Of a DNA stretch of 64,000 nucleotides, positions 3,287 to 19,922 are shown piece by piece (positions within the stretch are counted from its first letter, which is position 1; each line of letters begins with the position of its first letter). Both the position numbers and the translations under genes were made by a program. The notes below the pieces were generated by a model. That model searched no databases and was not told the DNA's origin. It saw only the letters and a list, made by a program, of their open reading frames with translations. Source of the stretch: Sphingomonas sp. M1-B02 (GTDB lineage Bacteria > Pseudomonadota > Alphaproteobacteria > Sphingomonadales > Sphingomonadaceae); NCBI RefSeq assembly GCF_026167525.1, contig NZ_CP110679.1:310001-374000 (forward strand), given 5' to 3'.

Positions 3287-3670
3287 ATGCGTCGGATCTG
3301 GCTGCTGACTTCAGCCCTGCTCGCGCTCGGCGCCTGCGCAGCGCCGCCGATTGCGGGCACCGCGCCGCAAGCGCAGCGCGCCTGCTTCTGGTCCTCGCAA
3401 GTCACCGGCTTCGCCGATGCCGGGCCCGACCGCGCTTTGGTGCATATCGGTACCCGCGAGACATGGGAGCTGACGCTGTCCCCCGGTTGCCCCGACGTCG
3501 ATTGGGCGATGAAACTGGGCGTTCGCGCGCGGGGCGGGGAGCGCATCTGTCCCGGGCGGCCCGCCGAATTGCTGGTTCCGAACGCCAGCGAGAGCGGCTT
3601 TCGCCGCTGCCTGGTCCGCAATGTCCGCCGGCTGTCTGCTGACGAGGCCGCCGCTGCACGGGGCATCTGA
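3287..3670 (+). CDS. Small lipoprotein, DUF6491-like
   Basis: Predicted 127-residue envelope lipoprotein of unknown role. The N-terminus is a classic lipoprotein signal: MRR, a hydrophobic stretch, then the lipobox LGAC with Cys at about residue 17. The mature part keeps pairs of cysteines (ACFW, PGCPD, RICPG, RRCLV) in the order seen in DUF6491 proteins. The ATG at 3287 is chosen over an upstream in-frame ATG at 3227 because it places the signal peptide at the N-terminus and has a GGAGAGAG ribosome-binding site just before it. The stop overlaps the next start (TGATG), so the two genes are probably cotranscribed. The DUF assignment is from memory of the Cys pattern and is moderate. Confidence 0.75.
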   Translation: MRRIWLLTSALLALGACAAPPIAGTAPQAQRACFWSSQVTGFADAGPDRALVHIGTRETWELTLSPGCPDVDWAMKLGVRARGGERICPGRPAELLVPNASESGFRRCLVRNVRRLSADEAAAARGI

Positions 3671-4461
3671 TGCCCCGGGGTCCCGAGCTCGTGACGGCGC
3701 TCGTACCTGTCTCGCTGGCAGGCGGACCCGCCGCCGCGCTTCGCCTGCTCGCTGCGCCGGCCCTGGGGGCGGTGGAGATTGCCCGTCCCCCGCTCGATGA
3801 TCTGCCCTACCGCGACTTCGTGCGGACGCTGCTGGGGCGGCAGGGGTTCAAGCTCGACTTCAATCGGATGACCCCGGACGAGGCGCTCGCCTTGGTCTCC
3901 GACCAGCTCCTCGGTCCGGGCGCGTTCCGGCAGGAACGCGGCCTGCTTGCATCCGACATCGCCGAGCTCGCGGATTTCGCGGCGGGGCTGGTGGGCGGGG
4001 TCAGGCCGTCGATTTCGGTGCGCACGCTGTTTGCCCCCGGCGACCTCGTCTGGCATCTCGATCGCCTGAGCGAGCCAAGCGCCTTCCGTCTGCTCTGGCC
4101 GCTCGGACGGCCCGGCGGCATGCGCTTCACCCCGGCGGACAATGTGGATGCGGGGATGCACCGCGCCTACATGCGCCGAGAACATCCGTTGCTGTGCCAG
4201 CTGGATGCGCGCGTGCTACGCGCCGGCGCGGACGTCGAGACCCTCTGGGCGCACCGGCCGGTCCAGCTGGAGGCGATGACGACCGGCCGCTATCCCTTCC
4301 TGCGCGATCCGGATTTGGAGGTTGCGGTCCACCCCGATGCCGCCAGCATCCACCGGGTCGAGACCGGATCGCAGCCGGGCACCTATCATCGCTCTTCCTG
4401 GGCCAATCGCCGTGCGCCGGGGTTCCAGATCGTGATCACTGCCGCGTCGGGGCCGGCATGA
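3670..4461 (+). CDS. Uncharacterised protein, possibly DUF1826-like
   Basis: Predicted 263-residue cytosolic protein without signal peptide or membrane segment. I do not recognise it firmly. The C-terminal half has a motif order (WHLDR around 128-132, FRLLWPLGRPGG around 138-149, and TYHRSSWANR followed by a hydrophobic strand near 241-260) that loosely recalls the cupin-like DUF1826 layout (HxD, then strand, then HRS). That link is weak. It overlaps the preceding lipoprotein gene by 1 base and the following aldo/keto reductase gene by 4 bases (ATGA), so the three form one translation-coupled unit. This suggests, but does not show, a shared pathway. Confidence 0.7.
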   Translation: MPRGPELVTALVPVSLAGGPAAALRLLAAPALGAVEIARPPLDDLPYRDFVRTLLGRQGFKLDFNRMTPDEALALVSDQLLGPGAFRQERGLLASDIAELADFAAGLVGGVRPSISVRTLFAPGDLVWHLDRLSEPSAFRLLWPLGRPGGMRFTPADNVDAGMHRAYMRREHPLLCQLDARVLRAGADVETLWAHRPVQLEAMTTGRYPFLRDPDLEVAVHPDAASIHRVETGSQPGTYHRSSWANRRAPGFQIVITAASGPA

Positions 4462-5420
4462 TCGCGCGCCGCGCTTTTGGCCGTACCGGCATCGAGGTGT
4501 CTTCCTGCACCTTCGGCACCGCCGCGCTGGCGGGGAGCGATCTCATGGAAGCGAAAGCGGCGCTCTCGCTGGCGTTCGAGCGCGGCGTGAATGCAGTAGA
4601 GGTTGATGCCGGCGACAGCGCGTCGATCGATCTTCTGGGCGGCATGCTCCAGCGCGAGGGCGCGCGCGATCGGATGCATGTCCTCGCGCGGCTGACCTCG
4701 CTGCTGCCGTTCGATCTGCCGTCACCGCACGTCATGGTCGGCCAAGCCTATCCTGGCCGGCAACTCCGCGCCGAGACCGAGGCGCTGCTCAGGCAGTTGG
4801 GAGTCGAGCGGCTGGGGATTGCGATGCTCCACGCCTGGTGCCCCGAATGGCTGCGCGAGGGGGACTGGATCGAGACGCTCGATCGGCTGCGGCAGGAGGG
4901 CAAGATCGCCGGCTTCGGCATCTCGCTGTTCGATCATGACGTCGATGCCGGGCTGGAGGCGGTGACCAGCGGGCTGATCGACGCCGTGGAGGTGATGTAC
5001 AATATCTTCGATCAGGGCGCGGCGGCGGCGCTCTTTCCACTGTGCCAGCGGCACGGCGTCGCGGTGATCGCGCGCGCGCCGCTATATTATGGCGCGCTGG
5101 CCGGGGCCAACCTCGCGCGAGGCGACTGGCGGGCGGGCTATTTCTACGACGCGCATCGCAAAGAGACCGAGGCGCGGGCAGGGCGCATCGCGGAGCCAGG
5201 AGAGGCGATATCGGATCTGGCGCTGCGATTTGCCCAGTCGCATCCTGCGGTATCGACTGTGGCGGTGGGGATGCGGACGCGTGCGCAGGTCGAGGCCAAT
5301 CTGCGCGCGTTCGAACAGGGTCCGCTGGATCCGGAGCAGCAGGGCTCGATGGCAAAGCATGCCTGGCTGTGCCTAAGCCCCCACCGCGCTGGGTCCAGCG
5401 CGGTGGGGAGAACATCCTAG
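4458..5420 (+). CDS. Aldo/keto reductase family protein
   Basis: Predicted 320-residue NAD(P)H-dependent oxidoreductase with an aldo/keto reductase TIM barrel. It starts RRAFGRTGIEVSSCTFGTAA, the usual N-terminal strand of the family, and contains DRLRQEGKIAGFGIS, the conserved barrel strand before the cofactor loop. The canonical catalytic Asp-Tyr-Lys-His tetrad is not obvious: GVNAVEVDAGDS stands where DTA-x-x-Y normally does, so activity on ordinary carbonyls is uncertain. The start at 4458 overlaps the upstream stop (ATGA); the frame runs further upstream but without family-like sequence. The last codons run through a perfect 14-bp hairpin, and its stop lies in a CTAG shared with the convergent btuB stop. 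GC content and codon use match the neighbours. Confidence 0.85.
   Translation: MIARRAFGRTGIEVSSCTFGTAALAGSDLMEAKAALSLAFERGVNAVEVDAGDSASIDLLGGMLQREGARDRMHVLARLTSLLPFDLPSPHVMVGQAYPGRQLRAETEALLRQLGVERLGIAMLHAWCPEWLREGDWIETLDRLRQEGKIAGFGISLFDHDVDAGLEAVTSGLIDAVEVMYNIFDQGAAAALFPLCQRHGVAVIARAPLYYGALAGANLARGDWRAGYFYDAHRKETEARAGRIAEPGEAISDLALRFAQSHPAVSTVAVGMRTRAQVEANLRAFEQGPLDPEQQGSMAKHAWLCLSPHRAGSSAVGRTS
5379..5408. terminator. Perfect 14-bp hairpin, probable bidirectional terminator
   Basis: CCCCACCGCGCTGG and its exact reverse complement are separated by only GT. The hairpin lies between convergent genes, but inside the last codons of the aldo/keto reductase and just past the btuB stop. No long T run follows on either side. 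Its position and perfection suggest termination or 3'-end protection for both transcripts. Confidence 0.6.
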
Positions 5421-7339
5421 AAGGCGACTCGCACGCCGCCAAAGGCGCCGCGGCCCTGAGTGGCGAAGCTGAACACCTCCTCATAGCGCTCGTCGAAAAG
5501 ATTCTCGACGCGGCCGAACAGCGAGACCTTGTCGCTGATCTTGTAGTCCGCGTTGAAATTGACCAGCACGAACTCCTGCAGCGAAACGACCGGCGAGCTC
5601 GCATAGGTCGGATCGGTGAAGGTGATGTCGGTCATCCGGCCGTTGTAGCGGACGGTGAGCGTGCCAGCGAAACGCTCGTCCTTGCTAAGCACAGTCGCGT
5701 TGAAGCTTCCCAAATGCTTGGGCCGGCGGACTTCCTCGGCACCATTCTCCTCGGCGTCGAGATAGGTGTAGGTCGCGTCGAGGCGAAGCTGCGGGATCGG
5801 TCGCGCGCTGACGAAGATTTCGACGCCGTGCTGCCTGGAATCGGTCGTGCGGTTGCCCGGGGTCGCGACGAAGATGGGGGCGGGATAGGTCGTGTAGATC
5901 TCGTCCTTCAGCGTCGAATCGAAATAGGTCGCGCCGATCGTCGCGCGGCCCTCGCCGAAGCTCTGCTCGATCCCGGCCTCCCAGCCTTCGGACTTCTCTG
6001 GCTTCAGGTTCGGATTGCCGATGTAGCGTCCGTCCGAATAGCCGTAGAGTTCGAAATAGCCCGGGTTCTTGACGCCGGTGCCATAGGCTGCGCGGATCCG
6101 CGTGTCGGTCGGGAGGCGATAGCTTCCCTGGACGCGCCAGGTCGTGGGATCGCCGAAGCGGTTGTTGTCGTCGTGCCGCACCGAGCCGCCGAGCGACAGC
6201 CGATCGGCCACCGTCAGCTCATATTGACCGACCAGCCCGAGATTGTCGGTATCGCGCTTGCCCTGGAACGCGAAGGGGGAGGGGGTGATGTTCCGGAAGC
6301 TTTCGCGTTCCAGATCCACCGCGCCGGTGATCCGATGGACGACGCTACCGGTGCCGAAGCGGAAACTCGAGACGAAGGAGGCCTTGTAGCGCTGACCCTT
6401 GTCGCCGCTGTCTAGGCCAGCCTGATTGTATCCTTTCCGGGTCGTGTCGGCGAACTGCGCTGAGAGGGCGTTGGTCCAGCGACCGTCGAGTGCCGTCAGT
6501 TCGGCGCTGACGAGGCCGTAGAAAGCGCGGTTGTTGAAGCGCACGCCGGGGCTGTCGACGATCGTGCCGAAGCGGGGGCTGGCCGGGTTTAGCTCGCTAT
6601 TGTTCGAATCGGCGTCGAGCTGGCTGTAGCGGCCGACTGCGCTCAGCTTGAGGTTGGGCGAAGGCATCCAATTGAGCTTGGCGGTGCCGGTCACCGACTC
6701 CGACCCGAGGTTGCGGGCGCCGCCGCGGGCATTGGGGGTGCCGTCGCTATGATAGAAGGACCCCGACACGGCGTAATCGAACGTGTCGGATGCACCGGCC
6801 GCCCGCGCGTTGCCGTTATAGGTGCCGAACGAGCCGCCCTCGGCGCGCGCGCTGAGCCCCGGAGCTTCGGCCCCGGAGAGCGTGATGTAATTGATTACCC
6901 CGCCGATCGCGTCCGATCCGTAAAGCGAGGATTGCTGGCCGCGCAACACTTCGATCCGTGCTGCAGGATCGGCCAGCAAGGTGCTGAAATCGAACTCGCC
7001 GACATAAGGGTCGGCGGCTTCGATGCCGTCGATCAGCACCAGCACCTGATTGCCCTCGGCGCCGCGGATGCGGACCTGGCCCTGGCCGGCAATGCTGTTC
7101 ACCGCGACGCCGGGCACGTCGCGCAATATGTCGGAAACCCGGCGCGTCTGGCGCCGGTCGAGTGCTTCGGCATCGAGCACCGTCACCGATGCGCCGATCT
7201 GGTCCGCCCGCACGGCGTCGCCGGAGCGCGAAGCAGTGACGAGGATGGCGTCGCCAGGATTGGTCTGGTCTTGGTCGGCTTGCGCTAGAGCGGGCGAGGC
7301 CGCGGCAAGCGCGAGCATCGAAATCATGGTCTTCTTCAT
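5417..7339 (-). CDS. btuB: Vitamin B12 TonB-dependent receptor BtuB
   Basis: Outer-membrane cobalamin transporter, about 640 residues, energised by TonB. It has a signal peptide (MKKTMISMLALAAASPALAQ), a TonB-box-like ILVTASR near residue 30, a plug with VLIDGIEAADP and IEVLRGQQSSLYGSDAIGGVINY, and a barrel ending GGVRVAF with the terminal Phe of outer-membrane proteins. The size matches BtuB (about 600-650), much smaller than the roughly 1,000-residue sphingomonad sugar receptors. Start 7339 is chosen because the signal peptide begins there; the frame is open upstream through non-coding leader. The substrate call rests mainly on the cobalamin riboswitch in the 5' leader. It is convergent with the aldo/keto reductase; the two stops share CTAG. 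Confidence 0.95.
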   Translation of the reverse strand: MKKTMISMLALAAASPALAQADQDQTNPGDAILVTASRSGDAVRADQIGASVTVLDAEALDRRQTRRVSDILRDVPGVAVNSIAGQGQVRIRGAEGNQVLVLIDGIEAADPYVGEFDFSTLLADPAARIEVLRGQQSSLYGSDAIGGVINYITLSGAEAPGLSARAEGGSFGTYNGNARAAGASDTFDYAVSGSFYHSDGTPNARGGARNLGSESVTGTAKLNWMPSPNLKLSAVGRYSQLDADSNNSELNPASPRFGTIVDSPGVRFNNRAFYGLVSAELTALDGRWTNALSAQFADTTRKGYNQAGLDSGDKGQRYKASFVSSFRFGTGSVVHRITGAVDLERESFRNITPSPFAFQGKRDTDNLGLVGQYELTVADRLSLGGSVRHDDNNRFGDPTTWRVQGSYRLPTDTRIRAAYGTGVKNPGYFELYGYSDGRYIGNPNLKPEKSEGWEAGIEQSFGEGRATIGATYFDSTLKDEIYTTYPAPIFVATPGNRTTDSRQHGVEIFVSARPIPQLRLDATYTYLDAEENGAEEVRRPKHLGSFNATVLSKDERFAGTLTVRYNGRMTDITFTDPTYASSPVVSLQEFVLVNFNADYKISDKVSLFGRVENLFDERYEEVFSFATQGRGAFGGVRVAF

Positions 7340-7534
7340 CAGGGATATCCCCGGCGTCATGAGCAACGTCGGCGGGGCGTGCCGTTCGCGAACGAACGGT
7401 CGGTGCGCGCCAGCGGGCGGACGCCTTTCGCGCCCGGCAACGTGCACCGATGCGGACCCGCCGCATGGGTTCGTCGCTCAGACGGAGTACCGTGCCTTGG
7501 CCTATCCCTGGACCATGGCAAGAGCGACCGGTGC

Positions 7535-7832: not shown

Positions 7833-9023
7833 CTACGACGGGTTACGGCGCGCCTCCAGGACATCGGCCAGGCTCGTCCATTTCGCCGCGCCGGCGCTGT
7901 TCGCGATCATCGCCTCGACGAATGTCATTGTTCGCAGGCCATCGGCGATGCCCGGAAACCAGTCGACCGTGTCCCAGGCCGGCGGGCGCGTTTGGCCCGC
8001 GCGCAGGGCGTGGCCGAAGCTCCGGTAGAGGTTCGCGAACGCCTCGATATAGCCTTCTGGATGGCCCGCGGGGGTGCGCAGCCGGGCCGTAGTCGATGCC
8101 TCGAGGCCGGGGCCGCCCGCGCGGATTATCTCGGCCGGCCGGTCGAGCCAGCGGATCGTCAGCGTATTGGGCTCCATCTGCGACCAGTCGAGTCCGCCTT
8201 TCTCGCCATGAATGCGCAGGCGCAGGCCATTTTCGTCGCCCGCGGCGATCTGGCTCGCCTTGAGCACGCCGCGCGCGCCATTTTCGAACTGGAGCAGCGC
8301 GGCAATGTCGTCGTCGAGCCGGCGGCCGGGTACGTGCGTGGTGAGGTCGGCGCTGAGCTGCTCCACCGTTAGCCCCGAGACATGCTCGGTGAGCTGGAAG
8401 GCGTGAGTGCCGATATCGCCCAGGCAACCGCCCAGCCCGGCACGCGCCGGATCGGTACGCCACTCGGCCTGCTTGTTACCTTCGCGGTCGAGGGGACCGC
8501 TGAGCCAGCCTTGCGAATATTCGACCTGGACCAGCCGGATCTTGCCCAGATCGCCGCGCGCGACCCGGGCCCGCGCCTCCTCGACGAGCGGAAAGCCGCT
8601 ATAGGTGAAGGTCAGGCCATAGAGTTTCCCGCTGCGCTGGACGGCCGCCTCGATGGCGAGCGCCTCCGCGAGGTCGAGCGCCATCGGCTTTTCGGACATG
8701 ACGTGGAAGCCGGCATCCAGCGCGGCGATCGCGGCGGGGGCGTGGAGGTGGTTCGGGGTGACGATCGCCAATACCTCCATCCGCTCCTCCGCGGGCAAGG
8801 CGGATTCGCCGGCGAGCAGGGCGTCGAGTGTCGGATAGCTGCGCCCCGGGGCCAGGCCAAGCGCATCGGCGCTGCGCCGTCCGCGCTGGGCATCGCTGCT
8901 GAAAGCGCCGCAGACCAGGGCATAATCGCCGTCAAGCGCCGCGGCCATGCGATGCACTGCGCCGATGAAGGCACCTTCGCCGCCGCCGACCATGCCGTAC
9001 CGGATCTTCGGCATAATGCGCAT
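7833..9023 (-). CDS. Gfo/Idh/MocA family oxidoreductase
   Basis: NAD(P)-dependent sugar oxidoreductase of about 396 residues, apparently cytosolic (no signal peptide). The N-terminal Rossmann fold shows [13 protein letters not shown]; the catalytic-lysine motif is [12 protein letters not shown]; the C-terminal domain has [14 protein letters not shown], whose Asp and His belong to the active site. The ATG at 9023 is chosen over the longer frame because GGAGGAGAGG precedes it at good spacing. It is divergent from the cytochrome c gene of the sugar-oxidation operon and shares a 119-bp regulatory region with it. In 3-keto-glycoside and C-glycoside pathways such enzymes oxidise the sugar C3 hydroxyl or reduce the released 3-keto-sugar. 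The direction here is inference. Confidence 0.92.
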
Positions 9024-9108
9024 GTCTTGCCTCTCCTCCATAATTGCGTTCGAGCCGCCCGCGCGGGGTTGCGCCCGGCGCTACCTATCGGCAAGATGCT
9101 GTCAACGA

Positions 9109-9128
9109 TGTCAACCAAAGGGTTGGCA
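9109..9128. promoter_or_regulatory. Candidate operator between divergent sugar-oxidation genes
   Basis: TGTCAACC-AAAG-GGTTGGCA is a 20-bp dyad with 7 of 8 arm positions complementary. It sits in the 119-bp gap between the oxidoreductase (minus) and cytochrome c (plus) genes, 15 bases before the cytochrome c start. A second TGTCAAC lies 9 bp upstream as a direct repeat (9100-9106). No regulator gene is visible in the cluster. Confidence 0.4.
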
Positions 9129-9142
9129 CGCCGGAGAGGTTT

Positions 9143-9538
9143 ATGAGGTCCATGATCGCGCTGGTGCCCGCCGTGGCGGCTTTGTGCGCAGTGGTATGGG
9201 CGATGCCCCCCGCCATCGTGGCGAAGCCCGTACAGGATCCCGGAGCGCAGGCCTTCGCAACCTGTCGTGCATGCCATACGCTTGCTGCAGGCGGAAGAAG
9301 CGCGATGGGTCCCAATCTTCACGGGCTGTTCGGGCGCAAGGCCGGTTCGATCGCGGGCTTCAACTACAGCCCTGCGCTGAAGGCATCGAACGTCGTCTGG
9401 GACGCGAAGACGCTCGACCAATATATCGCCGCGCCTACCAAACGCGTCCCCGGCACCCGGATGGTGGTGAGCGTGGCCGATCCCGCCCGCCGCGCGGCGC
9501 TGATCGCCTACCTCAAAGCCGAAACGTCGAAAAAGTAG
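9143..9538 (+). CDS. Class I c-type cytochrome, electron acceptor of the cluster
   Basis: Periplasmic or membrane-anchored monohaem cytochrome c of 131 residues. An N-terminal hydrophobic segment (about residues 4-26) is a signal peptide or anchor. The haem site CRACH (C41, C44, H45) is followed by MGPNLHGLFGR, typical of cytochrome c2/c552-type proteins, and the distal Met ligand lies in GTRMVVS (about M107). The start at 9143 has GGAGAGG upstream; the frame extends further upstream but into the divergent promoter region. It is the first gene of a run of eight same-strand genes ending with the GMC oxidoreductase. In known glucoside 3-dehydrogenases a cytochrome c accepts electrons from the GMC subunit, the role inferred here. 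Confidence 0.93.
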   Translation: MRSMIALVPAVAALCAVVWAMPPAIVAKPVQDPGAQAFATCRACHTLAAGGRSAMGPNLHGLFGRKAGSIAGFNYSPALKASNVVWDAKTLDQYIAAPTKRVPGTRMVVSVADPARRAALIAYLKAETSKK

Positions 9539-9548
9539 GGGGGGTGGC

Positions 9549-10592
9549 ATGAAGGGTCCGGCGGTCTTCCTCGCGCAGTTCATGGGCGATGCCGCGCCGT
9601 TCGACACGCTGCCGTCCGCTGCGCGCTGGATGGCGGATGCGGGCTATGTCGGCGTCCAGATCCCGACCTGGGACAGCCGCTGCATCGATCTGGCGCTGGC
9701 GGCCGAAAGCCAGGATTATTGCGACGAGCTCGCCGGCACCTGCCGCGAAGCAGGGGTTGAGATCACCGAATTGTCGACGCACCTGCAGGGCCAGTTGGTT
9801 GCGGTGCATCCGGCTTATGACGTGGCGTTCGACGGTTTCGCGCCCGAGTCGCTGCGCGGCAAGCCTGCCGAGCGCCAGGCCTGGGCAGTCGAGCAACTCC
9901 ATTTCGCCGCCAAGGCCAGCCGCCGCCTTGGTCTGAATGCGCATGCGACCTTTTCCGGCGCGCTCGCCTGGCCCTATCTCTATCCCTGGCCGCAGCGTCC
10001 GGCGGGACTCGTCGAGGAAGCGTTCGGCGAGTTGGCGAAGCGTTGGCGGCCGATCCTCGATGCGTTCGAGGAGCAGGGCGTCGATCTGGCCTATGAGATC
10101 CATCCCGGCGAGGACTTGCACGACGGGGTGACCTTCGAGCGGTTCCTCGCCGGCGTCGGCAACCACCCCCGCGCCAACATCCTCTACGATCCCAGCCATT
10201 ATGTGCTGCAGGCGCTCGATTATCTCTCCTTCATCGATATCTATCACGAGCGGATCCGGATGTTCCACGTCAAGGATGCCGAGCTCAACCCGACCGGGCG
10301 CTCGGGAGTCTACGGCGGCTTCCAGGACTGGATCGATCGCCCCGGCCGCTTTCGCTCGCTAGGCGACGGGCAGGTCGATTTCGGCGGCATCTTCTCGAAG
10401 CTGACGCAATATGGCTATGCCGGCTGGGCAGTGCTCGAATGGGAATGCTGCCTGAAGCATCCCGAGGACGGCGCGCGTGAGGGCGCACCGTTCATCGCCG
10501 CGCATATGATCCGCCGTGCGGACAAGGCTTTCGACGATTTTGCGGGCGGCAGCGATCCGGGGCTCAACCGGGCGCTGCTGGGGCTGGACTAG
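9549..10592 (+). CDS. TIM-barrel sugar isomerase/epimerase-like protein, cytosolic
   Basis: 347-residue AP-endonuclease-2-like TIM barrel (the xylose isomerase-like superfamily, which includes epimerases, isomerases and 3-keto-glycoside lyases). No signal peptide. Metal-binding positions of the fold are recognisable: ELSTHLQGQ, YEIHPGEDLHDG, YDPSHYVLQ, MFHVKDAELN and, near the C-terminus, VLEWECC, supplying the Glu/Asp/His set. It starts 10 bases after the cytochrome c stop, with GGGGGGTGGC before the ATG. It differs clearly from the two Tat-exported TIM barrels downstream and is longer (347 against 302 and 278). Isomerisation of a keto-sugar and eliminative cleavage of a 3-keto-glycoside are both possible; sequence reading alone cannot decide. 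Confidence 0.88.
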   Translation: MKGPAVFLAQFMGDAAPFDTLPSAARWMADAGYVGVQIPTWDSRCIDLALAAESQDYCDELAGTCREAGVEITELSTHLQGQLVAVHPAYDVAFDGFAPESLRGKPAERQAWAVEQLHFAAKASRRLGLNAHATFSGALAWPYLYPWPQRPAGLVEEAFGELAKRWRPILDAFEEQGVDLAYEIHPGEDLHDGVTFERFLAGVGNHPRANILYDPSHYVLQALDYLSFIDIYHERIRMFHVKDAELNPTGRSGVYGGFQDWIDRPGRFRSLGDGQVDFGGIFSKLTQYGYAGWAVLEWECCLKHPEDGAREGAPFIAAHMIRRADKAFDDFAGGSDPGLNRALLGLD

Positions 10593-10615
10593 AGACTCGA
10601 ACGGAGGGGATGGGG

Positions 10616-11917
10616 ATGGCCGAGGCGAGCAACAAAGGACGGCTGTTCTGGCTGGGTATCCTGGCGCTGTTCACTGCAGCATCGGGGCTGGCGATTCGGG
10701 GGGCGATCGCGAGCGGGCTCAAGGCCGAGTGGATCGATCCGATCGCGCCGTTGCAAGCTGGCGAGCTGCTCGCCGCGGCGCTGGGCGCTGCGTTCCTGAG
10801 TTTCGCGATCACCTTGTTTGTCGCCAGCGCATTGCTCGACCAGATCGGCATGAAGCGCTGCCTGGTCGGCGCAGGACTTTGCTTCTTCGCCGGGCCGCTG
10901 CTGGTGATCGCCGCGGGCCATCTGGCAACGGGCATGAGTGTCTATACTTTGGTCTGGATCGGCATGCTGCTCAGCGGCATCGGCTGGGGGCTGACCGAGG
11001 CGGCGATCAATCCGCTCACCGCGCAGCTCTATCCCGAGGATACCACCCACCGGCTCAACGTGCTGCACGCCTGGTTTCCCGGCGGGATCATCATCGGCGG
11101 GCTTGCCGGCTTTTTCCTGTCGGCGGCGCTGCCCTGGCAGGGAATCATGGCGCTGGTGATGATCCCAGCCGCCGCGACCGTGCTGATCGCCGCGACCACC
11201 GATTTCCCGCCGCCGCTGCGCAGCCAGAGTGGGGTGAGCTTCGGCGCGATGATAAGCGAAGTGTTTCGGCGCCCGAGCTTCTTCATCTGGTTCGCGGCGA
11301 TGTTCCTGACCGCCGCGTCCGAACTCGCGCCCGGGCAGTGGATCGATGTTGCATTGTCGAACCGCGTCGGCATGCGGGGCATCCTGCTGCTGGTCTATGT
11401 CAACGCGCTGATGTTCGTCTTTCGTCATTTTGCCGGACGGCTGGCGAACCGGATATCGAACCCCGGTTTGCTTTGGGTATCGAGCCTGTTGGCCGCGATC
11501 GGCCTGTTCATGCTCTCGCAGGCGCAGACCCCGGTCGCGGCGGTGCTCGCATCGACCGTGTGGGGCCTCGGCGTGTGCGTGATGTGGCCGACGATGCTCG
11601 CCTCGGTCGCGGAGCGCTATCCCCGCGGCGGATCCTGGGCGATGGGACTGGTCGGATCGGCCGGCGCGCTTGCGAGCTATTTCGTGCTGCCGCGGCTTGG
11701 CGCGATGTTCGATCAGGCGAAGATCGAGTTCGCCGGCGGGCCCGAGGCGTTCGCGGCGCTGACCGGCGCGGCGAAGCTCGCGGTCGAGGATGCTGCGGCA
11801 TCGGTATCCTTCCAGAAGCTGGCGTTCCTGCCGATCATCCTGCTGTTCGTGTTCGGCTTCATCTGGCTGCGCGAGCGCGGCAAGTCGCGGACCATGCTTG
11901 CAGGAGAGGTTGCATGA
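10616..11917 (+). CDS. MFS sugar transporter
   Basis: Inner-membrane major facilitator of about 433 residues with roughly 12 hydrophobic segments. Characteristic elements are FLSFAITLFVASALLDQIG(M)KR after helix 2 (the loop 2-3 motif region), GIGWGLTEAAINPLTAQLYP in helix 4, and GLGVCVMWPTMLASVAERYP in the second half, a motif recalling fucose/glucose-type MFS permeases. The start is placed at the second ATG (10616), 8 bases from GGAGG; an ATG at 10610 directly abuts the Shine-Dalgarno sequence. The gene overlaps the next by 4 bases. In context it probably imports the keto-sugar or aglycone-free sugar made in the periplasm; the substrate is inference. Confidence 0.9.
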   Translation: MAEASNKGRLFWLGILALFTAASGLAIRGAIASGLKAEWIDPIAPLQAGELLAAALGAAFLSFAITLFVASALLDQIGMKRCLVGAGLCFFAGPLLVIAAGHLATGMSVYTLVWIGMLLSGIGWGLTEAAINPLTAQLYPEDTTHRLNVLHAWFPGGIIIGGLAGFFLSAALPWQGIMALVMIPAAATVLIAATTDFPPPLRSQSGVSFGAMISEVFRRPSFFIWFAAMFLTAASELAPGQWIDVALSNRVGMRGILLLVYVNALMFVFRHFAGRLANRISNPGLLWVSSLLAAIGLFMLSQAQTPVAAVLASTVWGLGVCVMWPTMLASVAERYPRGGSWAMGLVGSAGALASYFVLPRLGAMFDQAKIEFAGGPEAFAALTGAAKLAVEDAAASVSFQKLAFLPIILLFVFGFIWLRERGKSRTMLAGEVA

Positions 11918-12822
11918 AGCTGAGCCGACGAACGATGCTGGCTGCGGGCGCTGCCACGGCGGGGGCGGCGACGATGGGCCAGGCCTTGCCGCGGTCCAAC
12001 GCTGCCCGCTTCTCGCTGGGCTTCGCGCCGCACGAGGGCAGCTTCAAGAGCCGCGGCAGCCGGATCGAGCAGATCGCCTTCGCCGCCGATCAGGGCTTCA
12101 CCGCCTGGGAAGACAATGAGGCGGCAGGCCGGACGATCGCCGAGCAGACGGCGATGGCAAAGGCACTCCAGCAGCGCGGCATGACGATGGGCGTCTTCGT
12201 CGCGAGCATGCCGCGCTGGGCCGAGTTCCGGCCCCTGCTCGGCGGGAATGACGACGCGGATCGCATCGCCTTCCTCGCCGATATCCGCGCCTCGATCGAC
12301 GTCGCCAAGCGGCTTGATGCGAAGTGGATGACGGTGGTCACCGGCTTCCTGGATCGCAAGCTGCCGGTCGAGATCCAGACCGGCCGGATCATCGACACGA
12401 TGCGGCGCGCCGCGGATATCGTCGCCCCGCACGGGCTGGTGATGGTGATGGAGCCGCTTAACACGCTGGTGAACCATCCCGGCGTCTTCCTGCAGACCAT
12501 CCCGCAGGGCTTTGCGGTCGCCAAGGGAGCGAATAGCCCGGCGGTGAAGGTGCTGGCCGACCTCTATCACGAACAGATCCAGGCCGGGCATCTGATCAAG
12601 ACGATGGAGACCTGCTGGGACGAGATCGCCTATATCCAGTTCGGCGACAATCCCGGCCGCAAGGAGCCCGGCACCGGCGAAATCAACTATCGCAACATCG
12701 TCCGCTGGCTCCGCGCGAAGCAGTTCGCCGGGGTGATCGGGATGGAGCATGGCAATTCGATCGACGGCCGCGCCGGCGAGGAGCGGCTCGTCGCCGCCTA
12801 TCGCGAAATCGACCTGCCATGA
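11914..12822 (+). CDS. Tat-exported TIM-barrel protein, hydroxypyruvate-isomerase-like
   Basis: 302-residue AP-endonuclease-2-like TIM barrel with a Tat signal: KLSRRTMLAAGAATAGAA. The mature barrel resembles hydroxypyruvate isomerase (Hyi) relatives: VMVMEPLNTLVNHPG carries the metal-ligand Glu, followed by KVLADLYHEQIQ (Asp/His), YIQFGDNPGRKEPGTGEINY and GMEHGNS. The GDNPGRxEPGTGEINY block is a strong Hyi-type signature. Hydroxypyruvate isomerase itself is cytosolic, so a Tat-exported copy beside a periplasmic sugar dehydrogenase suggests action on a keto-sugar or 3-keto-glycoside. The start overlaps the MFS stop and its own stop overlaps the next gene (ATGA at both ends), so expression is tightly coupled. 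Function beyond the fold is inference. Confidence 0.88.
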   Translation: MKLSRRTMLAAGAATAGAATMGQALPRSNAARFSLGFAPHEGSFKSRGSRIEQIAFAADQGFTAWEDNEAAGRTIAEQTAMAKALQQRGMTMGVFVASMPRWAEFRPLLGGNDDADRIAFLADIRASIDVAKRLDAKWMTVVTGFLDRKLPVEIQTGRIIDTMRRAADIVAPHGLVMVMEPLNTLVNHPGVFLQTIPQGFAVAKGANSPAVKVLADLYHEQIQAGHLIKTMETCWDEIAYIQFGDNPGRKEPGTGEINYRNIVRWLRAKQFAGVIGMEHGNSIDGRAGEERLVAAYREIDLP

Positions 12823-13655
12823 GGCGCCGGTTGAATCTGCTCCTGAGGACGGCTGCAGCCGGACTGATCGCGATGGGGAGCCCGGCCATAGCGCAGGAGA
12901 AACCCGGCTTCCGCGACACGCCGCTGCTGCCCGGCGGCAAGTGGCGCGTGCACGATGCCGATCGCCCGCATCCGCCGGTGGTGACGCCGGGCGCCGTTCC
13001 CGGTGCGCCGCCATCGGACGCGGTAATTCTCTTCGACGGCACGTCGCTCGACGCGTGGCGGCCGAGCGGCGCGGAATGGACGCTGAAGGATGGCGCGATG
13101 ACAGTGCCGCCCCGCGTGCAGGGCGGCGGCGAGAGCCTGCTGGTCAGCAAGCAAAGCTTCGGCAACGTACAGCTCCATCTCGAATTTCGCTCGCCCAATC
13201 CGCCGACCAAAAGCTCACAGGATCGCGGCAATAGCGGCATCTGGTTCATGCAACGCTACGAACTCCAGATCCTCGATAGCTATCGCAACCCGACCTATGC
13301 CGACGGTACCGTCGGCGCGATCTATGGATCGCAGCCGCCGCTGGTGAACCCGTCGCGCCCGCCGGGCGAATGGCAGCAATATGACGTGGTGTTCGAGCGG
13401 CCGCGCTTCGCCGCCGACGGCAAGCTGGTGCGGCCGGCTTATGTCACCGCCTTCCTCAACGGCGTGCTGGTGCAGAATCGCCAGCCCTGGCCGGGCACGA
13501 CGATCTGGCGGCGCCTCGCCAAATATGAAGCGCATGGCGATGCCGCGCCGATCCAGCTGCAGGACCATGATTCGGCGGTGTCGTTCCGCAACATCTGGGT
13601 GCGCCCGCTGCCCGAGGCGGCGGCGAGCCACGACTATCGAGGGGACGTGAAATGA
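12819..13655 (+). CDS. 3-keto-disaccharide hydrolase (DUF1080)
   Basis: 278-residue periplasmic protein of the DUF1080 family, a concanavalin-like jelly roll whose studied members hydrolyse 3-keto-glycosides. It has a signal peptide ending near residue 25 (GSPAIAQ), then the diagnostic VILFDGTSLDAWRP (around 68-81), a central beta-rich region with VQLHLEFRSPNPP and RGNSGIWFMQRYELQILDSY, and the end strand PIQLQDHDSAVSFRNIWVRP. The HLEFRxP, GNSGIW and QDHxxxVxFRNIWxRP blocks are textbook for the family. It sits between a TIM barrel and the small dehydrogenase subunit, overlapping both neighbours by 4 bases. Likely role: hydrolysing the 3-keto-glycoside made by the GMC enzyme. Confidence 0.94.
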   Translation: MRRRLNLLLRTAAAGLIAMGSPAIAQEKPGFRDTPLLPGGKWRVHDADRPHPPVVTPGAVPGAPPSDAVILFDGTSLDAWRPSGAEWTLKDGAMTVPPRVQGGGESLLVSKQSFGNVQLHLEFRSPNPPTKSSQDRGNSGIWFMQRYELQILDSYRNPTYADGTVGAIYGSQPPLVNPSRPPGEWQQYDVVFERPRFAADGKLVRPAYVTAFLNGVLVQNRQPWPGTTIWRRLAKYEAHGDAAPIQLQDHDSAVSFRNIWVRPLPEAAASHDYRGDVK

Positions 13656-14212
13656 GCCTGGACCGCAGAGACGCGCTGGCCGGCATGGCCGCGATGTTCG
13701 GCACCGCATTGTTCGCGCCGATCGCCCGCGCGGCGGGCGTGCAGGTGACTCCGATCAGTGCCGGCCCGCCAAGCGCGCCGGTGTTCAATCCACAGCAACG
13801 CCTGCTGATGACTGCGCTGAGCGAGCGGGTGATGCCGACCACCGACACGCCGGGCGCGATCGTCGCCGGCGTGCCGGGCTTCATCGAGAAGTTGCTCGCC
13901 GATTGGGCGCTGCCCGCCGAGCGCGCGCCGATCCTGAAGGGGCTCGATGCGATCGAGGCGCGCAGCCAGGCCGATTATGCGCAGGCCGCGGACACGGTCT
14001 CCCCCGAGCGGCAGGACGCGCTGCTGACGCTGGCGATGGAAGACAAGCTCCCGGGCGGGGCCGACTTCTTCGAGAAGTTTCGCCAGCTGGTGATCACCGG
14101 CTATTTCACCTCCGAAGTCGGCATCACGCAGGAGCGCGAATATCTGCCCGTGCCCGGGCGCTATGACGGCGCCTTTCCCTATTCTCAGGTCAACAAGGTC
14201 TATTCCTCATGA
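13652..14212 (+). CDS. Gluconate 2-dehydrogenase subunit 3 family protein
   Basis: 186-residue small subunit that partners FAD-dependent GMC dehydrogenases. The N-terminus is Tat-like (LDRRDALAGMAAMFGTALFAP), followed by the family core: LLMTALSERVMPTTDTPGAIVAGVPGFIEKLLADW, then FFEKFRQLVITGYFTSEVGITQE and a Tyr/Pro-rich end. The GMC gene lacks its own signal, so this subunit probably carries it through the Tat system as a folded hitch-hiker, as known for related dehydrogenases. The start overlaps the hydrolase stop (ATGA), and its stop overlaps the next TIM-barrel gene. Unusually, that gene separates it from its presumed GMC partner. Confidence 0.93.
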   Translation: MSLDRRDALAGMAAMFGTALFAPIARAAGVQVTPISAGPPSAPVFNPQQRLLMTALSERVMPTTDTPGAIVAGVPGFIEKLLADWALPAERAPILKGLDAIEARSQADYAQAADTVSPERQDALLTLAMEDKLPGGADFFEKFRQLVITGYFTSEVGITQEREYLPVPGRYDGAFPYSQVNKVYSS

Positions 14213-15045
14213 TGATCAACAGGCGGCAATGGCTGGCGGGCAGTGCGGCGCTGGCGACCGCGGTCGCAGCTGGCCCGCTGGCGGCGCAGGGCAAGGCAAA
14301 GTCGATCGGCATCCAACTCTACACCGTCCGCGAACTCTTCTCGAAGGACCCGATGGGCACGCTCGAGAAGATCGCGGCGATCGGCTATCGCGAAGTCGAA
14401 TATGGCGGCGGGGGCTATGAGAAGCTCGACCCCTCCGCATTGCGCGCGACAATGGACCGACTTGGGCTAAAATCGCCGTCCTTGCATATCGGCTACGATG
14501 CGCTTGCCTCGGATTTCGCGGGCTCGGTGCGGAGGGCGAAGACGCTGGGCGCCGACACCGTAGTCCTTCCCTGGATGGCCGAGAATCTTCGCAATGCGGA
14601 GGGATGGAAAGCCGCGCTCGCCAATTTCAGTCGCTGGGCCGAGCAACTCAAGAAAGCCGGGCTGGGCTTCGCCTATCACAACCATGATTTCGAGTTCACC
14701 GTGAAACCGGACGGTCGCAGCCTGTTCGACATGCTGGTGGCCGATACCGATCCGGCGCTGGTCAAGCTCGAACTCGATCTTTTCTGGGCAGTCGCAGCTG
14801 GCGAGGATCCCAAGGCGATCATCCGGCGCAATCCCGGCCGCATCTATGCCTATCACGTCAAGGATCGCACCGCCGACGGCAAGATGACCAGCGTCGGCAA
14901 GGGCACGATCGATTTCACCGATATCTTCACGCTCAATCGCATCGCGGGCGTGCAGCATTTCTATGTCGAGAATGATCAGTCGCCTGCGCCTTATCTTCCC
15001 GACATTCAGACCAGTTTCGCCGCGCTCAGCCGGCTCGTCGCATAA
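14209..15045 (+). CDS. Tat-exported sugar phosphate isomerase/epimerase-like TIM barrel
   Basis: 278-residue AP-endonuclease-2-like TIM barrel, the third of its kind in this cluster. The N-terminus INRRQWLAGSAALATAVAAG is Tat-type and ends near LAAQG. The mature protein starts SIGIQLYTVRELFSKD, typical of sugar phosphate isomerase/epimerase family proteins, and keeps metal/substrate residues in YHNHDFEF, VKLELDLFWAVAAG and YAYHVKDR. The LDLFWAxxAGxDP block is characteristic of exported family members found beside GMC dehydrogenases and DUF1080 hydrolases. It overlaps the upstream small-subunit stop by 4 bases and is 21 bases from the GMC start. Candidate activity: eliminative cleavage or isomerisation of the 3-keto-glycoside in the periplasm; not proven by sequence. 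Confidence 0.9.
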   Translation: MMINRRQWLAGSAALATAVAAGPLAAQGKAKSIGIQLYTVRELFSKDPMGTLEKIAAIGYREVEYGGGGYEKLDPSALRATMDRLGLKSPSLHIGYDALASDFAGSVRRAKTLGADTVVLPWMAENLRNAEGWKAALANFSRWAEQLKKAGLGFAYHNHDFEFTVKPDGRSLFDMLVADTDPALVKLELDLFWAVAAGEDPKAIIRRNPGRIYAYHVKDRTADGKMTSVGKGTIDFTDIFTLNRIAGVQHFYVENDQSPAPYLPDIQTSFAALSRLVA

Positions 15046-15066
15046 ATTTCATCGGGGGAAATAAGC

Positions 15067-16743
15067 ATGCCTGACATGTTCGATGCGATCGTCATCGGCT
15101 CCGGAGTGAGCGGCGGATGGGCGGCGAAGGAATTGACCGAGAAGGGGCTCAAGGTCCTGATGCTCGACCGCGGGGTGATGGTCGAGCATGGCGAGGGCTA
15201 TGACTATGACGGCAAGCCCGCTTATGAGATTCCCGCGCGTGACATGATGCCCAAGGCGCTGGTCGAGCGCGATTATTTCATCGCCAAATATGGCTATGTC
15301 GCGCCTTCGAGCCAGAAATATTACAACAACGACCGGCTGAACCCCTATGCCTATGGCGAGGGCGACAAATTCTACTGGATCCGCCCCGGCGCAGTCGGCG
15401 GCAAGTCGCTGATCTGGGGGCGCTGGAGCTTCCGCTGGAGCCCCGAGGATTTCGAGGCCAACAAGCGCGAGAATGTCGCGATCGACTGGCCGATCCGCTA
15501 TGACGACCTCGCCCCCTGGTACGATTATGTCGAGAATTATATCGGCGTTTCCGGCTCGCGCGAGAATCTGCCGCAGTTGGCGGACAGCCTGTTCCAGCCG
15601 CCGATGCAGATGAATATCGCCGAGAAATGGCTCAAGGAACGGCTGGAGGCGACGTCGCCCGGCCGCAAGCTGATCAACACGCGCCTCTCGAACATGACCG
15701 AGGACAAACCCGACCAGGGCCGTAGCAAATGCCAGTATCGCAACCAATGCGGCCGCGGCTGTTCGTTCGGCGCTTATTTTTCGACCCAGGCGGTGACGCT
15801 GCCCGCCGCGCGCGCCACGGGGCGGCTGACGCTGCGGCCCGACGCATTGGTCTCCAACCTCGAATATGATCCCGCCACCAAGAAGGTAACGGGCGTACGT
15901 GTAATCGACACCAAGACGAAGCAGGCCGAGGTGATCCCCGCGCGGCTCGTCTTCCTCTGCGCCTCGGCGATGGCGTCGACGCAGATCATGATGAACTCGC
16001 GGATCCCCGGCAGCGGTACCAGCCATTTCGACAGCAGCGGCACGCTCGGCCGCTATGTGATGGACCATATCTTCCGCGTCGGCGTCGGCGGCGAGATCCC
16101 CGGCATGACCGATTTCATCGAATATGGCCGCCGCCCGGGCGGGGTCTATATCCCGCGCTTCCGCAATGTCGGCGGTGAGGAAGGCGTCGGCTTCCGGCGC
16201 GGCTATGGCTATCAGGGCGCGGCGCGCCGCGATCCGGCCACGCCGCAGGGCTTCGGCGCATCGATGAAGCAGGGCATGCGCGGCTATGGCCCCTGGAAGT
16301 TCGGGATGGGCGCATTCGGCGAATGCCTGCCCTATGAAGACAATCGCGTCAGCCTCCATCCCGACAAGCTCGACCGCTTCGGGGTGCCGCTGATGCGCTT
16401 CGACGTCACCTTCCGCGAGAATGAGATCCGGATGATGGACGATGCTCGGACCGAGGGTGAGAAGATGCTGCGCGCGGCCGGCCTGCTCAACGTGACCAGT
16501 ACGCGGAGCGAGCATGTTCCCGGCGACGCGATCCACGAGATGGGCGGCGCGCGGATGGGGGCGGACCCGCGCCAATCGGTGCTCAACAAATGGAGCCAGG
16601 CGCATGACGCGGCGAACCTGTTCGTCACCGATGGCGCGCAGATGACCTCGGTGTCGTGCGTGAACCCGTCGCTCACGTTCATGGCGCTCACCGCGCGCGC
16701 CACGGACCATGCGATAAAGCAAATGAAGGCAGGCGCGATTTAA
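15067..16743 (+). CDS. GMC oxidoreductase, catalytic subunit of a sugar dehydrogenase
   Basis: 558-residue FAD enzyme of the glucose-methanol-choline family. The dinucleotide fold is VIGSGVSGGWAAKELTEKG (residues 8-26). PGAVGGKSLIWGRWSFRWSP is the FAD-attachment/family motif, the insertion CQYRNQCGRGCSFGAYFS has a four-Cys arrangement like gluconate dehydrogenase relatives, and the C-terminus has HEMGGARMGADP and CVNPSLTFMALTARAT (active-site Asn region). No signal peptide is present, so export probably depends on the Tat signal of the small subunit (13652-14212). With that subunit and the cytochrome c it matches glucoside 3-dehydrogenase, which oxidises the sugar C3-OH and passes electrons to the respiratory chain. 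GGGGAAATAAGC supplies the ribosome-binding site. It is the last gene of the operon. Confidence 0.95.
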   Translation: MPDMFDAIVIGSGVSGGWAAKELTEKGLKVLMLDRGVMVEHGEGYDYDGKPAYEIPARDMMPKALVERDYFIAKYGYVAPSSQKYYNNDRLNPYAYGEGDKFYWIRPGAVGGKSLIWGRWSFRWSPEDFEANKRENVAIDWPIRYDDLAPWYDYVENYIGVSGSRENLPQLADSLFQPPMQMNIAEKWLKERLEATSPGRKLINTRLSNMTEDKPDQGRSKCQYRNQCGRGCSFGAYFSTQAVTLPAARATGRLTLRPDALVSNLEYDPATKKVTGVRVIDTKTKQAEVIPARLVFLCASAMASTQIMMNSRIPGSGTSHFDSSGTLGRYVMDHIFRVGVGGEIPGMTDFIEYGRRPGGVYIPRFRNVGGEEGVGFRRGYGYQGAARRDPATPQGFGASMKQGMRGYGPWKFGMGAFGECLPYEDNRVSLHPDKLDRFGVPLMRFDVTFRENEIRMMDDARTEGEKMLRAAGLLNVTSTRSEHVPGDAIHEMGGARMGADPRQSVLNKWSQAHDAANLFVTDGAQMTSVSCVNPSLTFMALTARATDHAIKQMKAGAI

Positions 16744-17728: not shown

Positions 17729-19922
17729 ATGGCGGTCGCAGTTGGTCAGCCGGCGTTTAATGAGAATTACGCGGGGCTGTTTGAAACCGAATCTATGAAC
17801 CCCTTCCGGTAGAACTCGGGCGCACCGTTGGGCACTCCAATTACGCTATCGTATCGCTTCTCCGAGACGTTGCCAGACTACGATACGCACATGACCGGTT
17901 CGGTCGCCACTTATATGCCGGTGCCAGACCAGCTGCGAGCAATCGCTCGAAGCGCATTCAGCACGGTAAGCGCCGTCACCAATGTAACATTCGTGGAAGC
18001 TCCCGCGTCCAGCGGCTACCGAGACGTAGACATTGTGATAAACGGTACCACAATCTCCGGTGGTGGTGCTGCCTTCTTCCCGACTAGGCAGGGTTACGCC
18101 CTGTTTCCCAGCACAGGTGACATTTATCTGGGCGCGAACACTGTGCAGCAGAATGGGGGCATCAGCAAGTCGACCTACGATGTGGTGGGGAATGGGAGCT
18201 TGGCCGGATTCTACGAGACTTTTCTGCATGAGCTTGGTCACGCCTTAGGCCTGTTTCATCCGATGAACTATTCGGACGCCACGGGAGCCTATAATCCGAA
18301 TACCAGTCGCAATCAATCCAGAGATGCGGAACACGCTTTATATGGTGATGGCTTACGACAACGCTCCAGAGGCCAACGGTGCACAGTGGGACAGGCCCCA
18401 ATGCCGCTCGATATTCTCGCGCTCCAGAAGCTATACGGCATCAATCAGACAGCGAGCGCTGGCGATGATACCTGCACGATCCCGGCCCTCAACCCAGGGC
18501 TTCGTACAATCTGGGACTTCGGCGGTACCGACACCCTTGACCTTTCAAACATGAAGGTCGCCGCACGCCTCGACCTTCGCATCGGCGGAGTGTCGGACAT
18601 AGGGAAGATTTAAATTATATCCCAGTGGTCGGGAAACTCGACTGCCTCGAAGTCTAATGTGATCATCGGCCAAACACCGTCATAGGATTGTAGGATCACA
18701 CTACGCAGACGCGATCGTTGCAAACGATGCTAGCAATACGATTGTGGGCAATGGAGGCTCGGACAACCTCTCGGGGTTAGGGGGGAACGACACCTATGTT
18801 GTCAGTACAATGGACACAGTCGTTATGGAGAGCGTCGGGGAAGGCATCGGCACCGTGATCGTCCAAGCTTAAGGCTTCAATTGGGTTATGACCGGAAACG
18901 CGCACGTCGAGACCGTCTCGGCCGAGGCAGGTAGGGCGGCGATCAACAGTACCGGCAACTATCTTTCGCAGACAATCAACGGCAACGATGGTGCGAACAT
19001 CCCGTCGAGCGGCAGTCCAGACTCGCACGATACGCTCAAGGGCGGGCTGGGTGACGACACGTACCGCGTGTTCGCGAGCGGGGACGTAATCAACGACACT
19101 GGCGGCAACGACATCGTCTACACCAGCGGCACGAGCTATTTCCTTTATTCGACCGCCGCGGTGGAGACGCTTTCGACATCGCTGCATGGCGGAACCGAGA
19201 GTTTCTACCTGATCGGGAACGGCGCGTCGCACCTGATCATCGGCAGTTATGGCGACAACATAGTCAATAGCCGATCGGGCAATGGCGAAGGCAATGCTGA
19301 CACGATCATCGGCCTCTATGGCAACGACACGTTCGCGGTGTTCCTGCAAGGTGACGTGGTACGCGAAGCGGTCGGGCAGGGATTTGATACCGTCGTCGCC
19401 AACACGAATTATCAGCTTCGCGACGGGACCGACATCGAGAACCTGACCGTGGCGGACCAGACGTCCACCGATGCGGGACAGCAGTTCACGCTGCGCGGAA
19501 ACGCATTTGCGCAGACGTTGGTCGGCAACGATACCGCGAATGTCCTCGATGGGCGGGGCGGCGACGATCTTCTGATCGGGCGCGGGGGCAGCGACACCTT
19601 CGCGTTCACGACTGCGCTGGTCGCCGGCAATGTCGATAGAATCCAGGACTTCGCGGCAGGTGACAAGATCGGGCTCGCCTTAGATGCATTCGCGGGAGTG
19701 ACCGGCGGCGGGATCCTGGCGGATGAGCCCGTCGCCGGTGCCGCGGCGGCGGATGGCGACGATCGGCTGGTCTATGGCCAAGCTACGGGGCGGCTATGGT
19801 ATGACGCCGATGGAAATGACGCGGGGGCGGCGATGCTGTTTGCTACCCTGGCGGCAGGGACCCCGCTTCGTGCGGGGGACTTTGTGATTGTCGCGCCGGT
19901 GGCGAGCTTGCCAAGCATTTAA
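17729..19922 (+). pseudogene. Serralysin-type (M10) metalloprotease with RTX repeats, broken
   Basis: Remnant of a secreted zinc metalloprotease of the serralysin/RTX group, normally exported by a type I system. Order: N-terminus from ATG 17729; catalytic domain (GTPITLSYRFSETLPDY); zinc site HELGHALGLFHPM (HExxHxxGxxH, 18228-18260); Met-turn MVMAYDNAPEANGAQWDR in another frame (18342-18396); PLDILALQKLYGIN back in the first frame; then a beta-roll with degenerate RTX units (GGLGDDTYRV, GRGGDDLLIGRGGSDTF). Lesions: TAG at 17810-17812, a frameshift between about 18290 and 18340, a compensating shift near 18396-18400, TAA at 18611-18613, an unclear frame to about 18700, and TAA at 18870-18872. 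The only intact long piece is 18888-19922, the RTX C-terminus. No hlyBD-like transporter lies nearby. GC is lower than in neighbours. Confidence 0.88.

Follow-up and report, generated by a model that had tools for sequence, protein, structure and literature searches.

Which chemistry is encoded by nine adjoining genes of Sphingomonas sp. M1-B02, and what part would be played in it by TIM2, a TIM barrel with a twin-arginine leader that lies among them? The genes occupy positions 7833-16743 of the 64,000-nucleotide stretch analysed here (NZ_CP110679.1, positions 310,001 to 374,000; hereafter the window), where all nine open reading frames (ORFs) were confirmed, every family being backed by Pfam. 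They encode a GMC oxidoreductase, a gluconate-2-dehydrogenase subunit 3-like protein (subunit 3), a cytochrome c, three AP-endonuclease-like barrels (TIM1 to TIM3), a DUF1080 protein, a permease of the MFS family and a Gfo/Idh/MocA oxidoreductase (Gfo). A first-pass annotation had proposed a 3-keto-glycoside cluster, that is, a route of oxidative deglycosylation. This is borne out by the families themselves, by matches of two barrels to the AtHYD and AtOGE types, and by parallels in Caulobacter and Agrobacterium. Comparing families, orthology, conserved residues and gene linkage, we consider it very probable that the locus is a sphingomonad variant of the Caulobacter lac/Agrobacterium glycoside pathway. 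Its sole new element is TIM2, which we predict to be a periplasmic 3-keto-glycoside epimerase or isomerase. The annotation's view of an incompletely described system holds mainly for this protein and not for the rest, which matches the Caulobacter lac locus (PMC9007349) and an Agrobacterium operon (PMC10628242).

Proposed oxidation of the glycoside

According to Price et al. 2022, the lac locus of Caulobacter crescentus/vibrioides contains LacABC, DUF1080, 'two epimerases', a reductase and a transporter, the roles of the epimerases and the reductase being left open (PMC9007349). In C. vibrioides we analysed locus L035, which we infer from gene content and order to be lac; the assignment of locus tags to its DUF1080 genes is likewise our own. 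Its order is nucleoside-symporter-type MFS, Tat (twin-arginine translocation) TIM3, Gfo, TIM1, cytochrome c, DUF1080 (minus strand), GMC and subunit 3. Like the window, L035 brings together GMC, subunit 3, cytochrome c, DUF1080, Gfo, an AtHYD-type TIM1 and a Tat-exported AtOGE-type TIM3. It differs from it in gene order, in a Nuc_H_symport-type instead of an MFS_1-type permease, and in having a second DUF1080 gene; one of the pair does not match that of the window by BLAST at 1e-3.

The window GMC is 47% and subunit 3 32% identical to their L035 counterparts, and across 93 aa the cytochrome c shares 52% identity with the one adjoining the Caulobacter TIM1. These identities and the Pfam assignments mark the three proteins as a glycoside 3-dehydrogenase set, which would be of the LacABC type and the only likely oxidase of the locus. 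We followed it through the TIM2 loci of the genus (107 loci in 106 genomes, the window included; L246 was dropped as a duplicate of the place of L213). GMC residues H490 and N533, a His/Asn pair that we take to be catalytic in GMC enzymes, are kept in 107 of 107 rows. A simple pattern test, used for leaders throughout, found a twin-arginine leader on subunit 3 in all 107 rows and flagged 0/107 GMC rows; by eye, the start of the window GMC bears no leader.

Proposed cleavage of the oxidised glycoside

The best solved relative of TIM3 by sequence is the Agrobacterium O-glycoside eliminase AtOGE (8bvk, E 3.6e-26). TIM3 residues H157, H159, D190, H216 and E254 align with AtOGE His132, His134 (the catalytic one), Asp163, His189 and Glu233, which are named in PMC10628242. 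These five metal/catalytic residues, which make up an AtOGE-type lyase site with its Mn ligands and catalytic His, are kept in 106/106 genus rows (for residues and leaders, matches below 120 bits were dropped, leaving 106 TIM3, 86 DUF1080, 101 TIM1 and 99 Gfo rows). AtOGE begins with its barrel (8bvk aligned from residue 8), unlike TIM3, which has a twin-arginine leader, found in 106/106 rows. TIM3 is also 34% identical to the Tat TIM3 of L035, and it matches PDB entries 8tcd, 8tcs and 8tct at E about 1e-21, entries that presumably belong to the study of Nasseri et al. 2024. The Bacteroides 3-keto-glycoside pathway of that study reportedly shares the 3-keto chemistry and uses DUF1080 and TIM-barrel enzymes, with Gfo-type oxidation.

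The window DUF1080 protein shares 43% identity with one member of the L035 pair; its leader appears Sec-like by eye, and the pattern flagged 31/86 rows. Its family has a solved member, 8rr2, which we take to be the Bacteroides thetaiotaomicron lyase considered next. A rival reading is that DUF1080 carries the route by itself. In such a purely hydrolytic scheme GMC would oxidise, DUF1080 would hydrolyse the product to aglycone and 3-keto-sugar, the permease would import the sugar and Gfo would reduce it, the TIM barrels being accessory. The family name, the genetic tie in Caulobacter between DUF1080 and the use of lactose and raffinose (PMC9007349) and its presence within 10 kb of TIM2 in 88/107 loci speak for the scheme. 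We nevertheless regard it as improbable: TIM3 (106/107) and TIM1 (102/107) are steadier companions of TIM2, and the published account of the B. thetaiotaomicron enzyme acting on 3-keto-O-glycosides presents it as a lyase that works by elimination and can also hydrate (PMC13273386).

Predicted hydration and reduction

TIM1 aligns with AtHYD, the keto-glucal hydratase solved from Agrobacterium (8ro4), at an E value of 1.8e-177 over residues 1-346 of 347, which identifies it as a hydratase of this type, and is 75% identical to the L035 protein. The barrels are not merely phosphosugar isomerases; that AP-endonuclease-like barrels act here as cleavage enzymes would hold for TIM3, of the AtOGE type, and fails for the hydratase TIM1, of the AtHYD type. 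To follow the partners of TIM1 we used the best 80 of at least 596 confirmed relatives, from named genomes of several phyla, all of them at least 69% identical to it. In 71 of these 80 loci the distance between the TIM1 homologue and a Gfo relative is at most 1.5 kb; the nine scored as lacking an adjacent Gfo include two in which it overlaps TIM1 by a few bases (L058, L076) and one at a short contig end (L036). The window protein belongs to this hydratase-linked group of putative Gfo/Idh/MocA reductases and is 53% identical to the Gfo of L035. The leader pattern flagged 6/101 TIM1 and 18/99 Gfo rows, which we read as noise, as rows may hold up to 15 upstream residues; by eye, neither window protein has a leader.

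The glycoside operon of Agrobacterium tumefaciens consists of GlycDH, AtOGE, AtHYD and Gfo; on preliminary evidence AtHYD carries out the hydration there, and Gfo reduces 3-keto-glucose (Bitter et al. 2023, PMC10628242). The window shares this four-step set of oxidation, elimination, hydration and reduction, TIM1 corresponding to AtHYD and TIM3 keeping the five AtOGE residues. Because no fewer than 71 of the 80 loci place it next to the hydratase, and because it corresponds to the Agrobacterium/Caulobacter reductase, Gfo is most likely the final 3-keto-glucose reductase and not a second oxidase. By the same comparison, the 'two epimerases' of Caulobacter lac are most likely the eliminase and the hydratase, and its reductase the 3-keto-glucose reductase.

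The first-pass annotation had instead counted both oxidase types, proposing that GMC and Gfo, with two cleavage chemistries, handle O- and C-glycosides in one locus. Gfo enzymes oxidise C3 in DgpA-type systems, and the window Gfo is weakly similar to DgpA (7xr9, E 6e-8; 9m3d, E 2e-11). Its best structure matches, however, are far stronger and labelled just 'oxidoreductase' (3v5n, E 3.4e-102), and its linkage to the hydratase led us to reject it as a second C3 oxidase. Nor do the cleavage enzymes suit the proposal: TIM3 is of the O-specific AtOGE kind, AtOGE being inactive on 3-keto-C-glucosides (PMC10628242), and Pfam places all nine proteins in families other than that of the second subunit of the C-glycoside eliminases, so that none remains for that part. 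Likewise, no C-glycoside enzyme is named among the PDB matches listed for TIM1 to TIM3 at E 0.001, and a two-subunit eliminase was not found among the nine proteins. We therefore hold the proposal to be very improbable, and a specialisation for C-glycosides was rejected on the Pfam families and on the O-specificity of AtOGE (PMC10628242).

The hydratase also occurs in other settings. Many rhizobial and marine loci among L031-L085 hold an AtHYD-type TIM1 and Gfo with no GMC or TIM3 match, and four Variovorax loci (L045, L072, L077, L083) hold TIM1 with no Gfo match at all, which suggests that other upstream chemistry feeds the hydratase there. In Agrobacterium pusense (L041) the AtHYD-type gene and Gfo adjoin ORFs that resemble ABC transport genes by eye; this locus has no TIM3 match and no HNHDF-bearing ORF.

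Proposed route

In the simplest map, the MFS permease would link oxidation and cleavage outside the cytoplasm to hydration and reduction within it; we infer in this way the compartment of each step, the substrate of the permease, the reaction of TIM2 and the glycosides actually used. In the periplasm, GMC, exported by means of the Tat leader of subunit 3 and drained by cytochrome c, would oxidise the C3 hydroxyl of the glycoside. TIM3 would cut the 3-keto-glycoside by beta-elimination to 2-hydroxy-3-keto-glucal (with a preference for beta in the Agrobacterium relative), and in most strains DUF1080 would cut it as well. The permease would import 2-hydroxy-3-keto-glucal (or the 3-keto-sugar), which in the cytoplasm TIM1 would hydrate to 3-keto-glucose and Gfo reduce to glucose. 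TIM2 would act in the periplasm directly on the product of the oxidase, most likely as an epimerase or isomerase, converting 3-keto-glycosides of other kinds, such as C4 or C2 epimers, to a form that TIM3 or DUF1080 can cleave. The levoglucosan dehydrogenase of Bacillus smithii, which we take to be of the Gfo type, begins a route with a similar succession of steps. That pathway (LgdA/B1/B2/C) has the same order of chemistry, but its oxidase is a levoglucosan dehydrogenase, unlike the window GMC, and its substrate is an anhydrosugar (PMC7676230). Some observations count against the route as a whole: the relationship of TIM3 to AtOGE is distant (95.6 bits), the match of DUF1080 to 8rr2 is weak (E 2e-4), and the MFS type of the window lies within 10 kb in just 36/107 TIM2 loci.

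TIM2 accompanies the oxidase

TIM2 was found in 106/201 same-genus genomes (E 1e-30). Within 10 kb of the 107 TIM2 genes lie GMC and subunit 3 in every case, TIM3 in 106, cytochrome c and TIM1 in 102 each, Gfo in 101 and DUF1080 in 88; BLAST matches below 50 bits were dropped. Six of the loci are shorter than 15 kb, so that absences are upper bounds. As a control, subunit 3 (PF13618) occurs in 124/201 genomes of the genus and in 18/95 of those lacking TIM2, three of which (G834, G891, G938) hold it with an E value of 2e-30 or lower; a close subunit 3 gene in the absence of TIM2 is thus found, though seldom. Elsewhere TIM2 is rarer, with 13/147 in a draw from the order (E 1e-20), 7/385 from the class and 6/349 from the phylum (E 1e-30), these draws overlapping.

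In five genomes of another family of the order, TIM2 adjoins GMC in 5/5, and subunit 3 can be seen in three of them. The contigs L103, L104 and L106 end close to TIM2, so a stand-alone unit rests on L102 and L105, the genome of the latter being 53% complete. In a tree of 41 chosen GMC rows, including 16 of the 107 sphingomonad TIM2-linked ones and some long branches, the GMCs of L104 and L105 group with those of the sphingomonad TIM2 loci (100/95). TIM2-like Tat proteins in clusters of Bacteroidota and Gammaproteobacteria (L026, L028, L029, L037, L044, L051) are 21-23% identical to TIM2 and may represent a different family in the same role. Within the genus, locus L100 holds a second TIM2-like gene, 33% identical, adjoining a GMC gene (positions 11978 and 12823).

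The active site and the predicted reaction of TIM2

Firstly, a twin-arginine leader was found in the window TIM2 and in all 107 genus rows. Secondly, TIM2 combines a YcjR-type fold with a Glu/Asp/Glu site and a strand-5 EPLN motif. E180, D216 and E278 are kept in 107/107 rows and align with E. coli YcjR, a 3-keto-D-glucoside 4-epimerase (6wn6), E278 pairing with a Glu at the end of the alignment; in both proteins these residues presumably have a metal role. Thirdly, TIM2 carries Leu where TIM1 and TIM3 carry His, two residues past the strand-5 ligand, again in 107/107. Our prediction of an epimerase or isomerase was made because TIM2 is without the catalytic His of the lyases while an epimerase-like site is kept. 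No published account of TIM2 appears among the open-licence literature matches listed, judged by titles and opening abstract lines.

Several points weigh against this reading, or against the pairing with the oxidase. By sequence, TIM2 is no close relative of YcjR (33.5 bits over residues 158-278; 14-16% identity), which has His where TIM2 has Gln242. Unlike YcjR, TIM2 bears a Tat leader, and its nearest relatives are hydroxypyruvate/2-oxo-tetronate isomerases of the aldose-ketose type. In the fold comparison xylose isomerases score nearly as well as YcjR. The L102 GMC groups with the other GMCs of its own genome (81/85). Homologues 35-38% identical to TIM2 in four alphaproteobacteria of other orders (L112-L115), and one 33% identical in the same order near a contig end (L107), have no GMC match nearby. 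GMC clusters L021, L035 and L042 lack a close TIM2, and L075 and L084 hold just 26-27% matches without an RR leader. As L035 contains no TIM2 match, the route itself does not depend on TIM2. An ordinary hydroxypyruvate isomerase was rejected as an identity: TIM2 scores 123.1 bits against TIGR03234, far under the NCBIfam cut-off of 353.45, has a Tat leader and is fixed to the oxidase.

TIM2 might instead be a third cleavage enzyme, a lyase that acts specifically on whatever its partner GMC produces. Its place beside GMC in all five loci of the other family agrees with this, and L102 and L105, the two with good coverage to either side, consist of subunit 3, GMC and TIM2 with no TIM1, TIM3, DUF1080 or Gfo match around; such a bare unit fits an enzyme acting directly on the oxidised glycoside. 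Yet the Leu replaces the His of TIM1 and TIM3 throughout the genus, and the cleavage enzymes are present elsewhere in the genomes concerned: four of the five keep TIM1 and TIM3 on a separate contig with its own GMC, subunit 3 and Gfo (the fifth genome being 53% complete), and 5/5 have a DUF1080 gene. We regard a lyase as unlikely.

Within the epimerase/isomerase reading, TIM2 could be a periplasmic isomerase that restores spontaneously formed 2-keto-glycosides to the 3-keto form. The aldose-ketose character of its closest sequence relatives accords with this, and coupling to the oxidase alone would fit repair; we know of no isomerase for such a reaction, however, and the Caulobacter locus seems to manage without TIM2. 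Spontaneous isomerisation of 3-keto to 2-keto is documented, with a product left unused by one lyase, but on C-glycosides (PMC13273386). This sub-case, too, we think doubtful.

Arrangement of the locus and neighbouring genes

The eight plus-strand genes are spaced by +10, +17, -4, -4, -4, -4 and +21, and Gfo is divergent from them (Table 1). The nine genes and their families are as first annotated, but the count of 4-base overlaps among the seven junctions is four instead of five. For the cytochrome c the most likely start is the ATG at 9143, directly after GGAGAGG, rather than 9044. The genome is a single contig of 3.6 Mb, in which this locus holds the sole Gluconate_2-dh3 match and one of four DUF1080 matches (three above cut-off). 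Gene order is kept in eight sphingomonad loci (L006-L013); the full set of nine is present in seven of them, while L013 shows no DUF1080 match. The exact order of the window recurs in 19/107 TIM2 loci of the genus (window counted), the two sets apparently overlapping in some genomes; this conservation makes the arrangement more than chance. The commonest alternative, in 48/107, is TIM1, Gfo, cytochrome c, TIM2, DUF1080, subunit 3, TIM3, GMC. A LacI-type regulator gene (L157:12965-14008, plus strand) adjoins one alternative-order cluster by eye; inside the nine-gene run of the window there is no regulator gene.

Table 1. Genes of the glycoside locus and its surroundings, in window positions
Feature	Position	Strand	Basis and proposed role
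ORF ahead of aldo/keto reductase	3670..4461		no Pfam match at E 0.001
Aldo/keto reductase	4464..5420	+
TonB-dependent receptor	5417..7447	-	best scores to vitamin B12 receptor models, under their cut-offs
Gfo/Idh/MocA oxidoreductase, 402 aa	7833..9041	-	Pfam; predicted to reduce 3-keto-glucose with NAD(P)H in the cytoplasm as the last step
Cytochrome c, 131 aa	9143..9538	+	Pfam Cytochrom_C; predicted electron acceptor of GMC dehydrogenase, LacB-like position
TIM1, 347 aa	9549..10592	+	Pfam AP_endonuc_2; 8ro4 match; predicted cytoplasmic 2-hydroxy-3-keto-glucal hydratase, AtHYD orthologue
MFS permease, 435 aa	10610..11917	+	Pfam MFS_1; predicted importer of keto-glucal or 3-keto-sugar
TIM2, 302 aa	11914..12822	+	Pfam AP_endonuc_2; Tat-exported hydroxypyruvate-isomerase-like barrel; predicted 3-keto-glycoside epimerase/isomerase
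DUF1080 (3keto-disac_hyd), 278 aa	12819..13655	+	PF06439, 142 bits; 3-keto-disaccharide hydrolase family; putative second cleavage enzyme
Gluconate-2-dehydrogenase subunit 3-like, 186 aa	13652..14212	+	PF13618 (Gluconate_2-dh3), 109 bits; twin-arginine leader
TIM3, 278 aa	14209..15045	+	Pfam AP_endonuc_2; 8bvk match; predicted Tat-exported 3-keto-O-glycoside beta-eliminase, AtOGE-like
GMC FAD oxidoreductase, 558 aa	15067..16743	+	Pfam GMC; putative glycoside 3-dehydrogenase, LacA-like; without own leader
Serralysin-like M10 metalloprotease region	17828..19922	+	over two ORFs
First ORF of M10 region	17828..18613	+	Matrixin and M10 C-terminal
Second ORF of M10 region	18888..19922	+	RTX calcium-binding repeat match, sub-threshold

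The TonB-dependent receptor gene adjoins the cluster and is probably unrelated to it. The M10 region may be a broken or misread gene.

Implications

The excerpted description of the Agrobacterium operon mentions neither DUF1080 nor TIM2 (PMC10628242). We propose, tentatively and with rather less than even confidence, that TIM2 founds a family of Tat-exported 3-keto-glycoside epimerases or isomerases, partners of the GMC glycoside 3-dehydrogenase, which funnel non-gluco 3-keto-glycosides or misplaced 2-keto-glycosides into a gluco-specific elimination. If so, this funnel would broaden the substrates of the route without new glycosidases, and would go some way towards accounting for what becomes of 3-keto-galactosides in those lactose users that have an enzyme of this kind. 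The comparison also offers likely identities for the 'two epimerases and a reductase' of Caulobacter lac, and singles out TIM2. About half of the sampled genomes of the genus carry TIM2, with oxidase genes beside all 107 loci; given this spread, obtaining glucose from glycosides by a non-hydrolytic route is probably common there.

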